From: Geodermatophilaceae bacterium NBWT11
GTDB taxonomy: Bacteria; Actinomycetota; Actinomycetes; Mycobacteriales; Geodermatophilaceae
Length of the DNA stretch: 64,000 bases
Reading direction: 5' to 3'
Assembly (NCBI GenBank): GCA_014218215.1
Contig: CP043652.1
Coordinates: forward strand, 1,860,001 to 1,924,000
Shown piece after piece: positions 7,577-61,305 of the stretch. Numbering within the stretch: the first letter of the stretch is position 1; each line of letters starts with the position of its first letter. The notes beneath the pieces are model-generated. The model had not been told where the DNA came from. It saw nothing but the letters and a program-made list of their open reading frames with translations, and made no database searches. The position numbers and the translations under genes are program-made.

Positions 7577-8483
7577 CGAAGAGCGCTCCCCGGGTGAGCG
7601 CCCGCACCCGGTCGGTGTCCTCGCGGTACTTCAGGACGGCGCCGAGGGTGCGTGCCCCGGTCTCGGGGTCCAGCTCGCGGGCGCCCAGGGTGTGCAGCGC
7701 GGTGGCCCAGTCCATCGCCTCGGCGATGCCGGGGGGCTTGAGCAGGTCCAGGCTGCGCAGCTTCGCCGTCGCCCGGGCGACCTGGCGGGCCAGGGTCTCG
7801 GTGACCTCGGGGAGGCGCTGGCGCAGGATCGCCACCTCGCGCTCGAAGTCCGGGTGCTCCAGCCAGTGGTAGAGGCAGCGGCGCTTGAGGGCGTCGTGCA
7901 CCTCACGGGTGCGGTTGGAGGTGAGCACCACCAGCGGCGGGCTGGCCGCGCGCACGGTGCCCAGCTCAGGGATCGAGATGGTGAAGTCGCTGAGCAGCTC
8001 GAGCAGGAAGGCCTCGAACTCGTCGTCCGCGCGGTCGATCTCGTCGATGAGCAGCACCGACGGGGCGTCCTCGAGGGCCTGCAGCAGCGGGCGGGCCAGC
8101 AGGAAGCGCCGGTCGTAGAGCCCGGCCTCGAGCTGCTGCACGTCGCCGGTGGAGCCGGCGGCCTCGGCGGCCCGCAGGTGCAGGAGCTGACGGCCGAAGT
8201 CCCAGTCGTAGAGCGCCTGACTGGCCTCGAGGCCCTCGTAGCACTGCAGCCGGTACATCGGCCGGCCGGTGACCTCGGCGAGCGCGTGCGCCAGGGCGGT
8301 CTTGCCGACCCCGGCCTCGCCCTCCAGGAACAGCGGCCGGCCCATCGCCAGCGCCAGGTGTGCGGCGGTGGCCAGGCCCTCGTCGGGCAGGTAGCCGGTG
8401 GCCTGCAGCGCCGCGGCGAGGGCGTCGGGATCGGCCGGCAGGGTCTCGGCCGGGCGGGACGACGCAGTTGTGGGCTGACTCAC
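7566..8483 (-). CDS. MoxR-type AAA+ ATPase, CoxD-like
   Basis: 305 residues from the GTG at 8483, which has a GAAGGTGGG ribosome site just upstream; the frame extends 17 codons further without a better site. Walker A is GEAGVGKTALA, Walker B VLLIDEIDRAD, followed by LLELLSDF and the sensor strand VLTSNRTREVHDALKRRCLYHW, all typical of MoxR/CoxD. CoxD is a membrane-associated chaperone-like ATPase that, with CoxE, sets up the [CuSMoO2] centre in CODH. First gene of the D-E-F set here. The enzyme it serves is not encoded nearby. Confidence 0.9.
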   Translation of the reverse strand: MSQPTTASSRPAETLPADPDALAAALQATGYLPDEGLATAAHLALAMGRPLFLEGEAGVGKTALAHALAEVTGRPMYRLQCYEGLEASQALYDWDFGRQLLHLRAAEAAGSTGDVQQLEAGLYDRRFLLARPLLQALEDAPSVLLIDEIDRADDEFEAFLLELLSDFTISIPELGTVRAASPPLVVLTSNRTREVHDALKRRCLYHWLEHPDFEREVAILRQRLPEVTETLARQVARATAKLRSLDLLKPPGIAEAMDWATALHTLGARELDPETGARTLGAVLKYREDTDRVRALTRGALFGGS

Positions 8484-9243: not shown

Positions 9244-11073
9244 TCAGGCGGCGCGCACCGTCGTCACCCGGACCGCCGCCGACCACAGCGCGGCGGCCAG
9301 CGCGTCGTTCTGGTGGAAGAAGGGCGCGTTCGTGCCCGGCCGGGCGAAGGCCGCGACCTGCGCCCCCGACGTCCAGAACCCGACTGCGGACACCCGCGCC
9401 GAGGGCATGCCCTGCGCGGACACCAGCCGGAACGCGGCGTCCACGTGCAGCCGGCCCGAGCCGGCCTGCTCCGCGGCCACCCCGCGCGCCAGCAGCGCCC
9501 GCAGCAGCGGGTCGGTGGTGCGCCCGACGTCGACGGCCGGCACCCGGGCCTCGACCAGCGCGGTCGCCGTCGTCACCGTGTCGGTGCTCGACGAGCGGGC
9601 GACCCAGCGGGAGTCCTCCAGACCCACGACGGTGTCGGCGCCGGTGAACCGGACGACACCGGCCTCGGACAGCGCGAGGAGCTCTTCCAGCCGCGGGGAC
9701 GGCGGGCCGCTGGCCAGGTGGCTGAACAGGTTCATCCACCAGCCGCTGACGTCCTCCCGCTCGGAGCGGGGGGTCAGCCGGCCGGCCCGCACCAGCCCGG
9801 CGATGGTCCCGTGGCAGAACAGCAGCGCGGTGAACACCGCCTGGTCGGCGCTGTGTGCGGGGTCGGCGGCCCGGGCGAGGTCGGCGCGGACGTAGCCGCG
9901 CACCCACTCCTGGAGCTCCTCGTCGGAGGAGAACCGTGCGCCGGCCAACGGCCGGTCCAGCCGGGCCAGGTCGAACCGGTCGGCGGGGTCGGGGACGGCG
10001 GCAGCGACCAGCTCGGTCGGGTCGTCGGTGGCCGCGTACGCCTCGGCGAACTCCGCCCACGGCATCGCGACCCGCTCCGGGTGGGCCCGGAACAGCTCGG
10101 TGTGGTGCGCCCAGCCCAGCTCCCGGGCGATCACCGGGGCGAGGTCGGCGCGCAGGTCCAGCGGCCGGTCGCCGAAGCGCGCGGTGAGCGCGTCGGGGGT
10201 GAAGAACCGCAGCGGCACCGGCGGCCCGGCCCACGGGTAGCCCAGCTTGGCCTTGTAGGGGGTGCCCCGGCGGGAGCCCACGTGCAGCACCGGCTCCGCG
10301 CCCGAGGGGCGGTAGACCAGCCGGCCGTCGGCGTCCCGCTCGTGGACGCCACCGCGCCCACCGGTAAGCAGGGTGACCAGGTCGACGAAGGCCAGCCCGG
10401 CACCGCGCACGAGCACGTCCTGCCCGGGGTGCAGCACCGAGAGGTCCAGGTCGGCGGTGTACGCGGTCGGCACGTGTGTGAGCTCGGCCGCCGCCGCGGC
10501 TGCGGCGAGCGCGGTCTCCTCGTCGGTGGGCGTGCGGTCCAGGTGCCCCTGGGCGAGCACGACGGTGTCCGCGCGCAGCGTCCCGCCGTCCTCGAGTCGC
10601 AGTTCCACGCCGTGCGGGTGCTCGACGAGGTCGACGACCCGGGTGGCGTGCCGGTGCAGGGCCAGGCCCGGGACGGCGGCCAGGGAGTCCAGCACCCAGG
10701 ACAGGTAGGCGCTGACCAGCGTGCGCGGGGGGAAGGTCGCCGGGGTGAGTCGGCGGGCCAGCTCGCCCACCGGGCCGGGGAGGCCGACCCCGACCTGCTC
10801 GGCCCACTCCCACACGGTGGCCGACGTCACCACCCGGTCGGGCACGGTGACCGAGTCGTCGGGGAGCACGGTCACGTCCCGCACCAGCGAGTTGGCCCAC
10901 AGCAGGTCGGACTGCTCGGTCCGCCAGACCCGTCCCGCGCCGGGCGGGAACGGGTCGACGAGGTGCACGTCGAGACTGCGCCCGTCGGCGTGGGCGAGGA
11001 GCCGCTCGAGGACGCCGAGTGCGGTGGGACCGGCCCCGACGAGGGCGACGGTGAGTGCGGACGTGCTGGTCAC
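9244..11073 (-). CDS. Large FAD/NAD(P)-binding protein, under a Cys-type leader peptide
   Basis: 609 residues. The N-terminus VALVGAGPTALGVLERLLA is a Rossmann GxGxxxLGxxE-type motif; next come DPFPPGAGRVWRTEQSDLLWAN and, around residue 165, a second dinucleotide region (ADTVVLAQGHLD). This is the pattern of the NAD_binding_9 FAD/NAD(P)-binding family (loosely like SidA/lysine N-monooxygenase relatives); the substrate is unknown. GTG start 40 bases after the stop of a small leader ORF ending SALCRPA. Its position opposite a SAM-IV-controlled importer and its own Cys-type leader suggest a role in sulfur compound oxidation or reduction, which is an inference. It converges on the YciI gene. Confidence 0.8.
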   Translation of the reverse strand: MTSTSALTVALVGAGPTALGVLERLLAHADGRSLDVHLVDPFPPGAGRVWRTEQSDLLWANSLVRDVTVLPDDSVTVPDRVVTSATVWEWAEQVGVGLPGPVGELARRLTPATFPPRTLVSAYLSWVLDSLAAVPGLALHRHATRVVDLVEHPHGVELRLEDGGTLRADTVVLAQGHLDRTPTDEETALAAAAAAAELTHVPTAYTADLDLSVLHPGQDVLVRGAGLAFVDLVTLLTGGRGGVHERDADGRLVYRPSGAEPVLHVGSRRGTPYKAKLGYPWAGPPVPLRFFTPDALTARFGDRPLDLRADLAPVIARELGWAHHTELFRAHPERVAMPWAEFAEAYAATDDPTELVAAAVPDPADRFDLARLDRPLAGARFSSDEELQEWVRGYVRADLARAADPAHSADQAVFTALLFCHGTIAGLVRAGRLTPRSEREDVSGWWMNLFSHLASGPPSPRLEELLALSEAGVVRFTGADTVVGLEDSRWVARSSSTDTVTTATALVEARVPAVDVGRTTDPLLRALLARGVAAEQAGSGRLHVDAAFRLVSAQGMPSARVSAVGFWTSGAQVAAFARPGTNAPFFHQNDALAAALWSAAVRVTTVRAA

Positions 11074-11113
11074 GGGGGCGCTCCGGAGCTGGAGACGGAC
11101 GATGGGCGCGGGC

Positions 11114-11191
11114 TCAGGCCGGGCGACAGAGCGCGCTGCCGGTGCGCCGGAGGTCGACGTGCCGACGGCGGACGAGCGGCTGGTCGGGCAC
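11114..11191 (-). CDS. Putative leader peptide ending in SALCR-PA (upstream of the FAD/NAD(P) protein)
   Basis: 25 codons from GTG, preceded by GAGAGGAGG at ideal spacing. The peptide ends RRRHVDLRRTGSALCRPA. Short ORFs with HVDLxRxxSALCR near the end recur in actinobacteria upstream of sulfur-assimilation genes and are regarded as putative Cys-sensing leader peptides; I recall this from general knowledge, not from a search. A single Cys codon lies three codons before the stop. It lies 40 bases before the FAD/NAD(P)-binding gene and is the counterpart of the leader ORF on the other strand at 11426. Confidence 0.75.
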   Translation of the reverse strand: MPDQPLVRRRHVDLRRTGSALCRPA

Positions 11192-11236
11192 GGGGACCTC
11201 CTCTCCGGGGCGGGCGGACGACCTCATTCTCCACCA

Positions 11237-11253
11237 AGTCGATCGGATTTGAC
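11237..11253. promoter_or_regulatory. 17-bp element shared by both sulfur control regions, copy 1
   Basis: Reads GTCAAATCCGATCGACT on the minus strand. The same sequence with one change occurs at 16594-16610. It lies between the minus-strand leader/FAD gene and the plus-strand SAM-IV riboswitch, and its plus-strand end overlaps the TTGACG -35 hexamer at 11249. The layout suits an operator for a regulator acting on both divergent promoters. The regulator is unknown. Confidence 0.6.
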
Positions 11254-11278
11254 GACTGAGCATCCGAGGTCCTAACTT
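11249..11278 (+). promoter_or_regulatory. Predicted promoter of the riboswitch-importer transcript
   Basis: TTGACG (11249-11254), 18-base spacer, TAACTT (11273-11278). The start of transcription would fall at or just before the first bases of the SAM-IV aptamer, as expected for a riboswitch leader. The -35 overlaps the shared 17-bp element. Confidence 0.5.
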
Positions 11279-11283
11279 CTCCT

Positions 11284-11400
11284 CAGGTCCTGAGTACCAG
11301 CTGCAAGCCCCGGCTCGCTGGTCGGCAACCCTCCGCTGCGGTGGGGTGCCCCGGGTGACGACCTGGCGACGGCGCACGACTGTCGCAAGCGCAGCCCCGC
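11284..11400 (+). ncRNA. SAM-IV riboswitch 1 (ahead of the ABC importer)
   Basis: Contains the conserved SAM-IV/SAM-I-like core in order: GGTC..GAG, AAGCCCCGGCTCGCTGG, CGGCAACCCTCC, GTGGGGTGCCCCGGGTGA, closing GACC, then a short hairpin and CAAGCG that may make the 3' pseudoknot. These blocks bind S-adenosylmethionine; SAM-IV is known from Actinomycetota ahead of sulfur genes. It precedes a Cys-type leader ORF and the importer genes 11640-14449. High SAM is expected to lower expression. Confidence 0.9.
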
Positions 11401-11425
11401 TACGGCGGGGGACGAGGAGACCGCC

Positions 11426-11533
11426 ATGACCCACCCCACGACCGCCCAGCGGTCCGCGGTGCGTCCTGCGCTCCTCCTGGTCGGGCGGCCGGTCATCGAC
11501 CTGGTCCGCACCGACAGCGCGCTCTGTCGCTGA
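11426..11533 (+). CDS. Putative leader peptide ending in SALCR (between SAM-IV riboswitch and importer)
   Basis: 35 codons from ATG, with GACGAGGAGA upstream. The C-terminal part VIDLVRTDSALCR matches the leader at 11114-11191 (HVDLRRTGSALCR), and the DNA encoding the end is a 15-base identity (AGCGCGCTCTGTCGC) in opposite orientation. The Cys codon is second to last before the stop. Directly after the stop comes a GC hairpin (11551-11570). Position and peptide type suggest Cys-dependent translation-coupled control stacked on the SAM-IV switch. Confidence 0.75.
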   Translation: MTHPTTAQRSAVRPALLLVGRPVIDLVRTDSALCR

Positions 11534-11550
11534 CCCGACCGCGCCCCCCT

Positions 11551-11570
11551 CCCCCGGTCCGACCCGGGGG
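11551..11570 (+). terminator. Hairpin after the leader peptide (possible attenuator)
   Basis: CCCCCGG, 6-base loop, CCGGGGG: a 7-bp all-GC stem beginning 17 bases after the leader ORF stop. There is no U-run, as usual for actinobacteria, so it could end transcription or only shield the downstream start region. Stalling on the leader ORF could reach it, which is the arrangement of an attenuator. Confidence 0.4.
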
Positions 11571-11601
11571 CCTCCGACGACCCCTCCCCTGGAGTTCCCG
11601 C

Positions 11602-11643
11602 ATGTCCCGATCCCCCCTGCTCGACGCCGGAGACCCGCGATGA
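11602..11643 (+). CDS. 13-residue ORF coupled to the permease start
   Basis: ATG with GGAG seven bases upstream; peptide [13 protein letters not shown]. Its TGA overlaps the permease ATG as ATGA (11640-11643), the arrangement of translational coupling. No homology can be claimed. It may simply be a translation-loading ORF, or chance. Confidence 0.35.
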
Positions 11644-12620
11644 CCGCCCTGCAGACCCGCCCGTCGGAGTCCGCCGTCCCACCCGCGGGCACGCCCTACG
11701 ACCAGTTCACCGTGGTCAAGGCGAAGAACCCCGGCCGCTGGGCGGCCACCGCGGTGGTCGCGGTGCTGCTGGCGATGGTGCTGAACTCGCTGATCACCAA
11801 CCCACGGTGGGAGTGGGACGTCGTCGTCGCCTACCTCGGCGAGGTCTCGATCATCCGGGGCGTCTGGACGACCATCCAGCTCACCCTCATCACCGCGGTG
11901 CTCGGCTTCGCCCTGGGCACGGTGCTCGCGCTGATGCGGTTGTCCCGCTCGCCGCTGCTGCGCTCGGTCAGCTGGGGCTACACCTGGGTGTTCCGCTCCG
12001 TGCCGCTGATCCTGCAGCTGCTGCTCTGGTACAACCTCGCCTACCTGTACCAGACCCTGGAGATCGGGATCCCGTTCGGCCCGGCCTTCGCGAGCGTCGA
12101 GACGCTGTCGCTGATCGGCAAGTTCGGCGCCGCCATCCTCGGCCTGGGCCTGCACCAGGCCGCCTACTCCGCCGAGATCGTCCGGGCCGGCATCCTCTCG
12201 GTCGACCAGGGCCAGCACGAGGCGGCCGCCAGCCTGGGCATCCCGCGGCGCCGGCAGTCCACGAAGATCGTGCTGCCGCAGGCGATGCGGACCATCGTGC
12301 CCACCGCGGTCAACGAGATCATCGGCCTGTTCAAGGGCACCTCGATCGTCTACGTGCTGGCCCTGGGCGAGCTGTTCTACACCGTGAGCGTCATCTACGG
12401 CCGCACCCAGCGGGTGCTGCCGATGCTGGTGGTCGCCGCCATCTGGTACGTCGTGCTGACCACCGTCGTCACGGTGGTCCAGTACTACGTGGAGCGGTAC
12501 TACGCCAAGGGCGCGGTCCGCACGCTGCCACTGACCCCGCTGCAACGACTGCGGGGCAACCTGACCGCGGGCATCTCGCGGGTGCGTTCCACCTCGGGCC
12601 AGGACCCGGTGACCCGATGA
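11640..12620 (+). CDS. ABC transporter permease, polar amino acid (HisM/GltK) type
   Basis: 326 residues, with a cytoplasmic N-terminus of about 30 residues and roughly five membrane segments. The coupling-helix EAA-type loop is [28 protein letters not shown] near residues 195-225, with upstream [14 protein letters not shown], both typical of the PAAT family. With the ATPase (4-base overlap) and lipoprotein downstream it forms a complete importer. The SAM-IV riboswitch and Cys-type leader upstream point to a sulfur-containing substrate such as cystine, methionine or a related compound; which one is not decidable from sequence. Confidence 0.92.
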
Positions 12621-13396
12621 CCGCCCTGGAGACGCCTCCCGGTCGCGTGGAGGTGCACGGGGTGCACAAGTCCTTCGGGACCAACGAGGTGCTGCACGGC
12701 GTGGACCTGGTGGTCGAGCCCGGCAGCGTGACCGTCGTCCTCGGGCCCTCGGGGTCGGGCAAGTCGACGCTGCTCAGGTCGATCAACCACCTGGAGACCG
12801 TGGACCGCGGCTTCGTGGCACTGGACGGGGAGCTGGTCGGCTACCGCCGCAAGGGCGACAAGCTGCACGAGCTCAAGGAGAAGGACCTGCTCCGCCAGCG
12901 CACCCGGTTCGGCTTCGTCTTCCAGTCCTTCAACCTCTTCCCGCACCTGACCGCCCTGGAGAACGTCGTCGAGGCGCCCGTGTCCGCCCAGGGCCGCAAC
13001 CGGCGCGAGGTGGAGGCCGAGGCCCGCGAGCTGCTGGCCCGGGTGGGCCTCGCCGACAAGGCCGACGCGCACCCCCGTCAGCTGTCCGGAGGACAGCAGC
13101 AGCGGGTCGCGATCGCCCGCGCACTGGCCATGAAGCCCGCCGTCCTGCTCTTCGACGAGCCCACCTCGGCGCTGGACCCCGAGCTGGTCGGTGAGGTGCT
13201 GGCCGTGATCGCCGACCTGGCCTCCACCGGGACCACGATGATCGTGGTCACCCACGAGATCGGCTTCGCCCGCCAGGCCGCCGACCAGATCGTCTTCATG
13301 GACGAGGGCCGTGTGGTCGAGCAGGGCACCCCCGAGCAGGTCCTCGACCACCCGCAGCACGAACGGACCCAGGCCTTCCTGGCCAAGGTCCTCTGA
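12617..13396 (+). CDS. ABC transporter ATP-binding protein, polar amino acid type
   Basis: 259 residues. Walker [10 protein letters not shown] near 44-52, Q-loop [11 protein letters not shown], signature [16 protein letters not shown], Walker [16 protein letters not shown]-loop VVTHEI. The family insertion [39 protein letters not shown] is that of GlnQ/HisP. ATG overlaps the permease stop by 4 bases. It energises the importer of which 11640 is the channel and 13478 the binding protein. Confidence 0.93.
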
Positions 13397-13477
13397 CCCC
13401 ACCCCCCCCCCCAGATCCCGGACGGCGCACCCGCGTCGCCCGCCGTGGAAGCACGCCCAGAAGAGGAAGACCCACCC

Positions 13478-14449
13478 GTGAAGCTCTCCCACCTGGTCGG
13501 CGCCCTGCCGGTCGCCGCCGTCCTGCTGCTGACCGCCTGCACCAGCTCCGCCGAGATCGAGGCCGAGGCCCGTTCGGACGCTGCGGGTGGCACCTCCGCC
13601 GAGACCGCCCTGGTGGTGGACACCTCCCCGGAGCAGGCCGACCGGATCCGGACCGAGGAGGACCCCGACGCGGCCGCCCTGGTGCCGGCCGACATCGCCG
13701 AGGACGGGGTGCTGCGGGTCGGCGTCAACGGCGCCGGCGACCCCCCGCTGGGCTTCCTGGCCGACGACAACGCCACCGTCGTCGGCAGCGAGGTCGACAT
13801 CGCCCAGCTGGTCGCCGACGGTCTCGGCCTGGAGCTCGAGATCGTCAACACCACCTGGGAGGCGTGGCCGCTGGGCGTGCAGTCCGGCGACCTGGAGGCC
13901 GTCTTCTCCAACGTGGGGGTGAACGCCGAGCGGCTGCAGCTGTTCGACTTCGCCACCTACCGCCAGGGGATCATGGCCTTCATCGCCGCCCCCGACAGCG
14001 GGCTGGACATCACCGACGCCGCGGGCATCTCGGGCCTGCGGGTGGGCGTCGGTTCGGGCACCAACCAGGAGCGCATCCTGCTGGACTGGAACGCCGAGCT
14101 CGAGGCGGCCGGGGAGGAGCCGGCGACGCTGGACTACTACGTCAGCGCCGCCGACGCCCTGCTGGCCATCCAGTCCGGCCGGCTGGACACCTACATCGGC
14201 CCCAACCCCAACGCGGTCTACCAGGAGTCCGTCGGTGACCTGGAGATCGTCGGCTCGGTGAACGCCGGCTGGCCGAACACGACCTACGTGGCGGCCACCG
14301 TGCTCAAGGGCAACGGCCTGGCCGAGGCCGTCGAGGCCTCGCTGCAGAACGCCTTCGACGACGGCACGTACGCCGGGACGCTGGAGCGCTGGGGCCTGTC
14401 CGACGAGGCCGTCGAGGCCCCGGAGGTGAACCCCACCGTCGCCAGCTGA
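13478..14449 (+). CDS. Amino-acid-type ABC transporter substrate-binding lipoprotein
   Basis: 323 residues from GTG 13478 (AAGAGGAAG upstream; the in-frame GTG 33 bases earlier lacks a signal sequence context). A lipoprotein signal peptide VAAVLLLTAC gives Cys near 20 as lipid anchor. The mature part has the SBP_bac_3 pattern: VLRVGVNGAGDPPLGFLADD, GSEVDIAQLVADGLGLELEIVNTTWEAWPLGVQSGDLEAVFSNVGV, and GLRVGVGSGTNQERIL. It sits 81 bases after the ATPase, across a gap with an 11-C run. Part of the SAM-IV-controlled importer; the ligand is unknown. Confidence 0.9.
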   Translation: MKLSHLVGALPVAAVLLLTACTSSAEIEAEARSDAAGGTSAETALVVDTSPEQADRIRTEEDPDAAALVPADIAEDGVLRVGVNGAGDPPLGFLADDNATVVGSEVDIAQLVADGLGLELEIVNTTWEAWPLGVQSGDLEAVFSNVGVNAERLQLFDFATYRQGIMAFIAAPDSGLDITDAAGISGLRVGVGSGTNQERILLDWNAELEAAGEEPATLDYYVSAADALLAIQSGRLDTYIGPNPNAVYQESVGDLEIVGSVNAGWPNTTYVAATVLKGNGLAEAVEASLQNAFDDGTYAGTLERWGLSDEAVEAPEVNPTVAS

Positions 14450-16410: not shown

Positions 16411-16454
16411 CGAGGAGCTCCTGGCCGTCAGGGGCCCGCGCCTGGCGGGACCCG

Positions 16455-16565
16455 CGCTTGCGGCTGCACTGCGCAGCCGCCAGGTCGTCACCCGGAGCAC
16501 CCCATCGCGGTGGAAGGGTTGCCGACCAGCGAGCCGGGGCTTCGCGCTGGCACTCGTGACCTGAC
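16455..16565 (-). ncRNA. SAM-IV riboswitch 2 (ahead of the SufS-like gene)
   Basis: On the minus strand the blocks are GGTCACGAG, AAGCCCCGGCTCGCTGG, CGGCAACCCTTCC, GATGGGGTGCTCCGGGTGA, GACC, a hairpin GGCTGC/GCAGCC, then GCAAGCG. Same order and spacing as switch 1. It controls the desulfurase-osmC transcript, and its back faces switch 3 on the other strand. A CCTGACGTCAGG palindrome (16560-16571) lies at its 5' edge. Confidence 0.9.
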
Positions 16566-16593
16566 GTCAGGGTGCCATGCGCCGGCGATACCC

Positions 16594-16610
16594 GTCAAAC
16601 CCGATCGACT
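16594..16610. promoter_or_regulatory. 17-bp element shared by both sulfur control regions, copy 2
   Basis: GTCAAACCCGATCGACT on the plus strand, 16 of 17 identical to the copy at 11237-11253. It lies between riboswitch 2 (minus) and riboswitch 3 (plus). As in copy 1, on one strand it contains the TTGAC of a -35 hexamer (minus strand, toward riboswitch 2), and on the other it lies just upstream of the opposing promoter. Confidence 0.6.
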
Positions 16611-16619
16611 GAGTGGGGA

Positions 16620-16654: not shown

Positions 16655-16760
16655 CCGGTCGAGAGCGTCAGCGACAAGCCCTGGCTCGCTGACCGGCAAC
16701 CCTCCTCTACGGCGGGGTGCCCCAGGTGATGACCCGGCGGAGGCCACCCCTCCGCAAGCG
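16655..16760 (+). ncRNA. SAM-IV riboswitch 3 (ahead of the monooxygenase operon)
   Basis: GGTCGAGAG, CAAGCCCTGGCTCGCTGAC, CGGCAACCCTCC, GGCGGGGTGCCCCAGGTGA, GACC, a hairpin CGGAGG/CCTCCG, then GCAAGCG. It differs from switches 1 and 2 by compensated changes (for example CCCTGG in place of CCCCGG with CCAGG in place of CCGGG), which supports a folded RNA under selection. Expected to repress the operon 16868-23707 when SAM is plentiful. Confidence 0.9.
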
Positions 16761-16784
16761 TGGACGCCGCACGAGGAGAGCCCT

Positions 16785-16871
16785 GTGCCACCGAAGACCG
16801 TCGCCCGCCCACCGGCCGGGGGACGCCCCCCGCTGCCCGGGGCGCGCCCAGCCGAACCGGAGACGACATGA
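16785..16871 (+). CDS. 28-residue Pro-rich ORF coupled to the first monooxygenase
   Basis: GTG preceded by GAGGAGAG. The peptide is Pro/Arg-rich and has no Cys, so it is unlike the SALCR leaders. Its TGA overlaps the next ATG as ATGA. It sits between SAM-IV switch 3 and the first structural gene, the position the Cys leader holds at the other switch. Could be a leader or a translation-coupling ORF. Confidence 0.4.
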   Translation: MPPKTVARPPAGGRPPLPGARPAEPETT

Positions 16872-60342: not shown

Positions 60343-61305
60343 GTGCCCGAGACACCCACCACTGCCGCCCTGCTGCAGGAGCTGGAGCCGGTCGTCGAGG
60401 AGAACCTCAACCGGCACGAGAAGATGGCCCAGGAGTGGCACCCGCACGACTACGTGCCGTGGTCCGAGGGTCGGGACTTCGCCTTCCTCGGTGGCGAGGA
60501 CTGGGCGCCGGAGCAGTCGCGACTGGACGAGACCGCCAAGGCCGCGATGATCACCAACCTGCTCACCGAGGACAACCTCCCCAGCTACCACCGCGAGATC
60601 GCGACCCGGTTCAGCCGGGACGGCGCCTGGGGCACCTGGGTGGGCCGCTGGACCGCCGAGGAGAACCGGCACGGCATCGCCATCCGCGACTACCTCGTCG
60701 TCACCCGCGGGGTCGACCCGGTCGAGCTCGAGCGCGCCCGGATGGACTACATGACCTCCGGCTACGACTCCGGGGACAAGACACCGCTGGAGGCCGTCGC
60801 GTACGTGTCCTTCCAGGAGCTGGCGACCCGCGTCAGCCACCGCAACACCGGCAAGGCCACCGGCGACCCGATCGCCGACCAGATGCTCGCCCGGATCGCC
60901 AAGGACGAGAACCTGCACATGGTCTTCTACCGGAACATCGTCGGTGCGGCGCTGGACATCGCCCCCGACGAGACCATGCGGGCGATCGCGAACGAGGTGA
61001 TCAACTTCGAGATGCCCGGTGCCACGATGGCCGGCTTCCGGAAGAACTCCACCATCATCGCCAAGGCCGGCATCTACGACCTGCGCCTGCACCACGACGA
61101 CGTCGTCGCCCCGATCCTGCGCCACTGGAAGGTCTTCGAGCGCTCCGGCTTCGGCCCCGAGGGCGAGAAGGCCCGCGAGGAGCTGGCGCTGTTCATGAGC
61201 GGCCTCGACGCCCAGGCCACCAAGTTCGTGGAGTCCCGGCAGCGGATGCGCGACCGGCTGCAGGCGCGGCAGGACAGCCAGATCGCGCCCCTCGCCCAGG
61301 CCTGA
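60343..61305 (+). CDS. Acyl-ACP desaturase (fatty acid desaturase type 2)
   Basis: 320 residues from GTG 60343, GGAGG upstream. The di-iron ligands are visible as WTAEENRHGIAIRDYLV and IAKDENLHMVFYRNIV, the ExxH pairs of soluble stearoyl-ACP desaturases; a further Glu lies in NLTEDNLPSYH. It puts a cis double bond into acyl-ACP with O2 and reduced ferredoxin, for membrane lipid. Homologous to DesA1/DesA2 of mycobacteria. Followed by a hairpin. Confidence 0.92.
   Translation: MPETPTTAALLQELEPVVEENLNRHEKMAQEWHPHDYVPWSEGRDFAFLGGEDWAPEQSRLDETAKAAMITNLLTEDNLPSYHREIATRFSRDGAWGTWVGRWTAEENRHGIAIRDYLVVTRGVDPVELERARMDYMTSGYDSGDKTPLEAVAYVSFQELATRVSHRNTGKATGDPIADQMLARIAKDENLHMVFYRNIVGAALDIAPDETMRAIANEVINFEMPGATMAGFRKNSTIIAKAGIYDLRLHHDDVVAPILRHWKVFERSGFGPEGEKAREELALFMSGLDAQATKFVESRQRMRDRLQARQDSQIAPLAQA

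Follow-up and report, generated by a model that had tools for sequence, protein, structure and literature searches.

A SAM-IV riboswitch paired with a conserved cysteine-type leader ORF upstream of a probable sulfur amino-acid importer operon in Geodermatophilaceae

Introduction

In Geodermatophilaceae bacterium NBWT11, a soil actinobacterium, a SAM-IV riboswitch probably gates the translation of a putatively cysteine-sensing leader ORF, which in turn would control a transporter operon. Judged by comparison of related sequences, the SAM-IV aptamer and the leader ORF, which ends in SALCR, are real elements that belong together. The parts of this layout, their conservation, their spacing and the codon bias of the leader can be read directly in the genomes, and we infer that combined control by SAM and cysteine is the best-supported reading of them. 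The window, i.e., the whole stretch of 64,000 nucleotides analyzed here, is part of a single-contig genome of 4.59 Mb (hereafter G000).

The SAM-IV aptamer and its upstream region

A first-pass annotation of this DNA had placed a SAM-IV aptamer ahead of the importer. This assignment was confirmed by the covariance model RF00634, which matches nucleotides 11286-11397 (+) over its full length (model positions 1-116) with 97.6 bits for a gathering score of 38, and the RNA is regarded as a putative SAM binder. The promoter proposed in front of it is supported by inspection but not by computation: while a mechanical scan of positions 11000-11700 returned no promoter-like site passing threshold, the pair TTGACG (11249-11254) and TAACTT (11273-11278), separated by 18 nt, is visible at 11249-11278 (+) and is kept, by eye, in relatives. 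Over the -35 region lies an operator-like motif, AAGTCGATCGGATTTGACG (11236-11254, +; exact here), for which the DNA motif search returned a second copy with two mismatches at 16593-16611 (-), for a mean chance expectation of 0.01 at up to three mismatches. A resembling sequence is recognizable by eye 5' of SAM-IV in relatives. The motif is partly palindromic and, at both sites, is located near the -35 of a SAM-IV transcript; a transcription factor common to the two sites is possible.

Two more SAM-IV copies are found back to back in the window, at 16449-16561 (-) and 16657-16766 (+), the first preceding a SufS-like gene and the second a gene for an NtaA/DmoA-like monooxygenase. After the latter copy, a GTG ORF located by eye at approximately 16785-16871 has a TGA which overlaps the ATG of the gene. 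The window also contains a match to the ASdes sRNA (Rfam, 84.3 bits) at 60661-60728 (-).

Between the aptamer and the Shine-Dalgarno (SD) sequence of the leader, a short stem, CCCCGC/GCGGGG (11395-11410, +), is present in the sequence and in the RNAalifold consensus of seven genus sequences, its inner pairs being broken in one of them. In the same consensus, the leader SD pairs with the codons of CTCCTCCTGGTC. This candidate anti-SD pairing is not claimed because it is nearly invariant and absent, by eye, in other genera.

The leader ORF and its relatives in the genome

The 35-codon ORF ending in SALCR that the first-pass annotation had described was recovered at 11426-11533 (+), preceded by the SD sequence GAGGAG (11414-11419, +). 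It encodes MTHPTTAQRSAVRPALLLVGRPVIDLVRTDSALCR and contains a single Cys codon, TGT (11525-11527), separated from the stop by one Arg codon; the run of regulatory codons typical of a trp-type attenuator is absent, with one Cys codon in 35. Residues 16-34 form a core which aligns with all 19 positions of the NCBIfam profile NF042934 (cis_reg_atten, "putative leader peptide") with 18.5 bits and an E-value of 0.0012. Since this score is below the cut-off of 27 bits, we call the leader NF042934-like rather than a member of the family. The models of the Cys-rich leaders Ms5788A and Ms4527A (NF042933 and NF042936, cut-off 45 bits) gave no match to it at an E-value of 10.

At an E-value of 0.01, the NF042934 matches listed cover 53 of the 54 genomes of the family and none of 14 control genomes; at an E-value of 10, matches also appeared in 10 of the 14 controls, none above the cut-off. 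G000 itself contains six copies that we judge credible, two above the cut-off, the leader studied here being the weakest (E 0.033). According to Pfam, the five others precede a TauE/SafE gene, a DUF4395 gene followed by a rhodanese, a sulfite/nitrite reductase, a cysteine dioxygenase followed by a rhodanese and, in the window, an FAD-NAD(P)-binding gene (9244-11073). Together, these leaders look like a putative cysteine regulon. The leader standing before the FAD-NAD(P)-binding gene is the second, divergent ORF VPDQPLVRRRHVDLRRTGSALCRPA (11114-11191, -; start codon by eye), which reaches 27.5 bits and thus exceeds the cut-off of 27. Divergent leader pairs are also found, by coordinates, in G048, G010 and G016.

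Conservation of the riboswitch-leader pair

Orthologues of the permease, with 89-98% identity, are encoded in eight of the nine genus genomes including G000, the ninth (G005) having a distant match only. All eight loci, i.e., seven relatives and the window, contain SAM-IV and the leader, which closes with the 20 residues LLLVGRPVIDLVRTDSALCR or with a variant differing at one position; the leader also occurs in other genera. We searched a 27-nt codon-degenerate pattern of the peptide end, RTD-S-[AS]-LCR-stop (Ser as AGY, Arg as CGN, stop as TAA or TGA, synonymous positions free), in genome_contigs, which by its description covers 84,980 species and may exclude near copies of the window's genome. 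Eighteen stretches were retrieved, one from Tateyamaria and 17 from Geodermatophilaceae (Klenkia, Modestobacter, Trujillonella, Goekera, Geodermatophilus, itself a member of this family, and one more Geodermatophilaceae). SAM-IV is located just 5' of the leader in 17 of these 17 and is absent from the Tateyamaria stretch, which has TGC as Cys codon. The 17 sequences share ACC-GAC-AGC-GCG-CTC-TGT-CGC-TGA, with TCG for GCG in L120, while the first Arg has mixed codons.

The SALCR end, whose poor conservation in relatives the first-pass annotation had named as a finding that would speak against its model, is hence nearly invariant, synonymous sites included. Its proposal that SAM-IV and a Cys-type leader ORF share one transcript leader also withstood comparison, as the two are conserved together and are placed for SAM-IV to act first on leader translation. 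In L135 (Modestobacter altitudinis), near 7783-7809, a frame shift before RTDSALCR separates the start from SALCR, which is either a real loss or a sequencing error. In G028, the leader is kept but stands before a different gene.

The leader ORF at the position of a riboswitch target

SAM-IV was surveyed in 57 family genomes with filters that lose weak matches, and all of the 81 copies listed were screened. A Cys-ended leader follows 17 of them, 14 being of the LVGR..RTDS[AS]LCR type and three of the RRHIDLQLVTSALCP type. When 21 RTDS[AS]LCR leaders were compared (17 named loci with G000, G048, G010 and G055), an in-frame ATG or GTG preceded by a five-base SD match was found 14-36 nt past the aptamer in 20 of them, L135 being the exception because of its frame shift. 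This conserved SD-led uORF start directly after the aptamer is a feature expected of a riboswitch-gated uORF relay. At the 64 SAM-IV copies without leader, a long SD-led ORF, picked mechanically and in some cases in a wrong frame, starts within 70 nt in 60 cases (median 41), the exceptions being L063, L092 and L003 with its G006 counterpart. The leader ORF thus stands where, at most SAM-IV copies lacking a leader, the main gene begins, and this usual position of a target gene is the main argument for SAM-IV acting on leader translation. Long spacing alone is not diagnostic of a Cys leader, since the gene behind the third SAM-IV copy of the window (16657-16766) starts at 101 nt and has none.

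Codon and residue bias of the leaders

Seventy-eight distinct leaders were gathered by a motif requiring R/L, V/I-D, a residue among L/M/C/I, and Cys at fixed spacing. Among these related sequences, which do not count as independent events, the conserved Cys is encoded by TGT in 74 and by TGC in the remaining four. By comparison, only five of 104 Cys codons are TGT in 39 ORFs of the window called mechanically. The same preference was observed in 35 NF042934 matches (29 among the matches listed and the six of G000), L200 alone having TGC at the conserved Cys and the 34 others TGT; these leaders contain 12 further Cys codons, including a later one in L182, all of them TGC. Two residues not demanded by the motif, R8 and S11, are kept in 75 and 73 of the 78 leaders, respectively, despite mixed Arg codons, which argues for selection at the peptide level. 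Ser11, three residues before the Cys, is encoded by AGC in 68 of 73 cases versus 30% AGC in window usage, which hints at a constraint at the RNA level spanning AGC..TGT. When the spacing was left free, the last Cys was found nine residues past the Asp in 68 of 79 redundant matches. A pairing of the base before the GAC of VDL with the base after TGTC proved inconsistent across leaders; from the list assembled for this comparison, L037 and L198 (GLVDIAPC...) were dropped as spurious frames, TGT being present in 68 of the 72 remaining.

RNA downstream of the leader stop

The first-pass annotation had reported a 7-bp GC hairpin right after the leader stop. The stem exists (CCCCCGG/CCGGGGG, 7 bp, arms 11551-11557 and 11564-11570, +), but it begins 18 nt past the stop. 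The stem-loop (11551-11570) lies in a C-rich, G-poor stretch 3' of the stop and is a candidate attenuator or Rho-loading region. A CCCCGG..CCGGGG stem recurs in the Klenkia relatives. Seven of the eight genus loci were compared, G004 being left out because it has no equivalent stem by eye; G001, which has a bulge, was not included in the pairing and, among the six others, A-T in G002 and G-C in G008 replace the C-G of the rest, while the outer pair is broken in G006 and G003. Covariation of this putative hairpin is slight.

The hairpin, whose poor conservation the first-pass annotation had likewise named as contrary evidence, is a weak part of the layout: the stem recurs with two swaps but is not stable beyond its composition. 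Compared with dinucleotide shuffles, the 90 nt following the stop have a z-score of +0.56 in the window and of -0.35 on average over 21 loci (below -1 in five of the 21), so that across these loci the post-stop RNA is no more stable than its shuffles. A mechanical scan of positions 11000-11700 found no intrinsic-terminator-like site, and hence no trp-type terminator with its U-tract. On these two results, the post-stop hairpin was rejected as an intrinsic terminator. As no such terminator was found, termination would probably be of the Rho type. The excess of C over G reaches 0.15 or more in the 60 nt after the stop in 21 of 21 loci versus 8.9% of window 60-mers (both strands), a composition that would suit Rho-dependent termination.

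A deleted GNAT gene and the importer operon

The 13-codon ORF noted ahead of the permease exists at 11602-11643 (+), and its TGA overlaps the permease ATG at 11640. Its interpretation as a coupled control element had to be abandoned. At the seven other genus loci, a GNAT acetyltransferase gene of 176-183 codons is intact between the leader and the permease, its stop also in an ATGA overlap. In G006, an incomplete genome with a 98% identical permease, the gene, identified as GNAT by Pfam, extends over 552 nt where the window has 42 nt. By eye, the mini-ORF joins the first nine or ten GNAT codons, without change of frame, to the final few codons, the two parts sharing a GGA where they meet. Being a remnant in which both ends of a deleted gene are joined, it is ruled out as a regulatory uORF and its coupling to the permease is inherited from the lost gene. 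Relocation of the missing gene was likewise rejected, the nearest GNAT protein remaining in G000 being 62% identical and encoded far away. Among the 14 LVGR-type loci, the script flagged GNAT in 11; a variant of this protein is recognizable by eye in G027, a different gene stands in G028 and the mini-ORF alone in G000.

The operon continues with an ABC transporter permease of polar amino-acid type (11640-12620, +; Pfam BPD_transp_1), an ABC ATPase (12617-13396, +; Pfam ABC_tran) and a substrate-binding lipoprotein (13478-14449, +; Pfam SBP_bac_3, start codon by eye and searched on the longer frame 13445-14446). The best NCBIfam model is cystine-type for the permease (131.1 bits, 300 needed) and L-cystine TcyN for the ATPase (316.8 bits, cut-off 406). 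For the binding protein, the cystine model ranks second (60.1 of 312 bits), behind a kinase model far under its cut-off. Because the cystine-type models all score below their cut-offs, the substrate is assigned by analogy, and the importer is probably of sulfur amino-acid type.

Proposed mechanism and alternatives

Regarding ligand sensing, ribosome stalling, the downstream step and the importer substrate, we infer the following sequence of events. SAM-IV would be a translational OFF switch for the leader ORF, the SD of which begins 17 nt past the aptamer end. When SAM is low, ribosomes would enter the leader ORF and, if Cys-tRNA is short, would dwell at the single conserved UGU near its end. 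The dwelling ribosomes would cover or remodel the C-rich RNA downstream, so that termination is blocked or the next ribosome site is opened. The importer operon, the first gene of which (GNAT) is in this strain reduced to a 13-codon scar still overlapping the permease start, would then be expressed, and is expected to be ON when both SAM and cysteine are low. Importer expression is hence predicted to depend on leader translation.

The placement of the leader fits equally well a relay responding to SAM alone, in which SAM-IV gates the leader and leader translation merely couples downstream events, either by Rho shielding of the C-rich RNA or by re-initiation, the Cys codon being no sensor and the peptide end being kept for another reason. 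The C-rich RNA present after the stop in all 21 loci is consistent with such a relay, as is the B12 riboswitch of Mycobacterium tuberculosis, whose uORF translation is essential for ppe2, with no amino-acid sensing mentioned in the part of the account available (PMC11260477). It would nevertheless leave unexplained why the same Cys-ended leader family is found before sulfur genes, why UGU is preferred, and why relatives of the leader resemble in profile the Cys-rich leaders Ms5788A and Ms4527A, and we judge this reading unlikely.

A second alternative is nascent-chain arrest, in which the conserved VDLxRxxSxxC end would stall the ribosome in a cysteine- or thiol-dependent manner instead of the codon being read via tRNA supply. 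This would agree with a single Cys codon rather than a run, with the presence of R8 and S11 at fixed distance before the Cys amid synonymous Arg variation (the search pattern imposed V/I, D and Cys at set distances, but neither R8 nor S11), and with the nine-residue distance that persisted under free spacing. The UGU preference and the AGC bias at S11 indicate RNA or codon constraints as well, and arrest of this kind appears rather improbable. Last, the conserved DNA might chiefly be an RNA structural element, e.g., CGACAG-CGCGCT-CTGTCG at the leader end, with the ORF incidental. Although the 24-nt end is almost invariant in 17 of 17 sequences, third positions included, and the stem appears in the single-sequence minimum-energy fold of four of 14 loci (L086, L090, L091 and L094), 20 of 21 loci keep an open frame and a start codon led by an SD although the N-terminal DNA varies, and the wider leader family varies synonymous codons while keeping residues. 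In addition, the invariant stem has no covariation and the consensus fold of seven genus sequences pairs the stretch otherwise, which makes an incidental ORF very improbable.

Relation to known systems

Ms5788A and Ms4527A reportedly correspond to the mycobacterial leaders that respond to cysteine in the work of Canestrari et al. 2020. By the title of that work, these leaders are polycysteine and leaderless, in contrast to the one Cys codon, SD-led start and upstream aptamer found here; SAM-IV-linked leaders of other families match the Ms5788A and Ms4527A models with at best 30.7 and 29.9 bits, below the cut-offs of 45, whereas the leader of the window does not match them. With NF042934, the latter shares the full-length alignment, a Cys near the C-terminal end and relatives in G000 before sulfur genes, but differs by its score and by its location behind SAM-IV. 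Two signals read in one leader, one of them via a leader ORF, are also found in mgtA/mgtCBR-type leaders, where a metal- or nucleotide-responsive RNA is combined with a proline-codon leader ORF; there, the signals are others and the phylum is another.

The interplay between riboswitch and uORF has been described in M. tuberculosis for the B12 riboswitches of metE and ppe2 (Kipkorir et al., 2024; PMC11260477). According to the available part of that paper, the riboswitch controls a short ORF needed downstream (ppe2), as proposed here, but with another ligand and aptamer and with a uORF stop overlapping the gene start, whereas in our case 106 nt separate the leader end from the permease. Before cys operons, leader peptides carrying runs of Cys codons have been described, with no conserved hairpins and with Rho suggested (Seliverstov et al., 2005; PMC1262725). 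As far as the accessible text goes, these resemble our leader in being short ORFs with Cys codons near the stop and no conserved terminator hairpin, but differ in their codon runs and in the absence of any mention of a riboswitch, while the present leader has one UGU behind SAM-IV. The consulted portions of two other papers state that cysteine biosynthetic genes are regulated by translation attenuation (PMC13236596) and that, in S. lividans, SAM-IV precedes a cysteine desulfurase gene, a leader ORF being unmentioned there (PMC8079986). Similarly, no Cys leader is mentioned in the available sections of the SAM-IV accounts of PMC3766115, PMC2864571 and PMC3774663. A search of titles and abstract openings, a weak negative as subscription literature lies mostly outside it, found no description of SAM-IV combined with a Cys leader.

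Distribution and implications

SAM-IV is present in at least 150 of 246 genomes of the class. Ninety copies were read, L138-L167 (30) and 60 others picked for spread and not at random. A script classed 51 of them as direct, 19 as followed by a tiny RM ORF, three by a VDL-type Cys leader and 10 by other short ORFs, with seven left unresolved. Three of these 10 (L217, L218 and L255) are VDL/IDL Cys leaders, which brings the Cys leaders to six among the 90 copies, spread over four families. NF042934 matches each of the six at an E-value of 1e-4 or better, in two cases above the cut-off, and their last Cys is encoded by TGT in every case. For L220 and L211, matches below the cut-offs were also obtained with the Ms4527A and Ms5788A models. 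The direct class may hide further leaders, as a short ORF ending in RCCCR occurs at L147, a copy of that class. RM ORFs, which have a CGA-ATG core, occur after 19 of the 90 copies in seven families; 12 (L146, L149, L152, L153, L157, L162, L163, L165, L166, L223, L226 and L232) belong to one family, which we take to be Streptomyces-like (VSKRMR and variants). The RM ORF after SAM-IV is possibly a methionine-related leader. Several actinobacterial families thus show a short leader ORF behind SAM-IV (6/90 with Cys and 19/90 with RM), so that, at the level of sequence, the impression of the first-pass annotation that such two-metabolite logic in one leader is uncommon does not hold.

A broader generalization can be put forward tentatively. 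Actinobacterial SAM-IV may often gate a sulfur-sensing leader rather than a metabolic gene directly, either a Cys-ended, UGU-fixed, NF042934-like leader (seen in five families) or, in seven other families, a tiny peptide with RM (CGA-AUG) that might sense methionine. Within a single mRNA, such a leader would perform an AND operation on SAM and amino-acid supply, and UGU would be the codon fixed for sensing.

If the SAM- and cysteine-dependent reading is correct, a riboswitch and an amino-acid leader peptide would operate in series, reading the SAM/methionine and cysteine branches on one transcript. It would assign a testable role to a family of leader peptides labelled in NCBIfam as no more than "putative," and would set a definite codon rule, with UGU where sensing takes place. 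An unannotated leader ORF may then be what a SAM-IV riboswitch targets directly.
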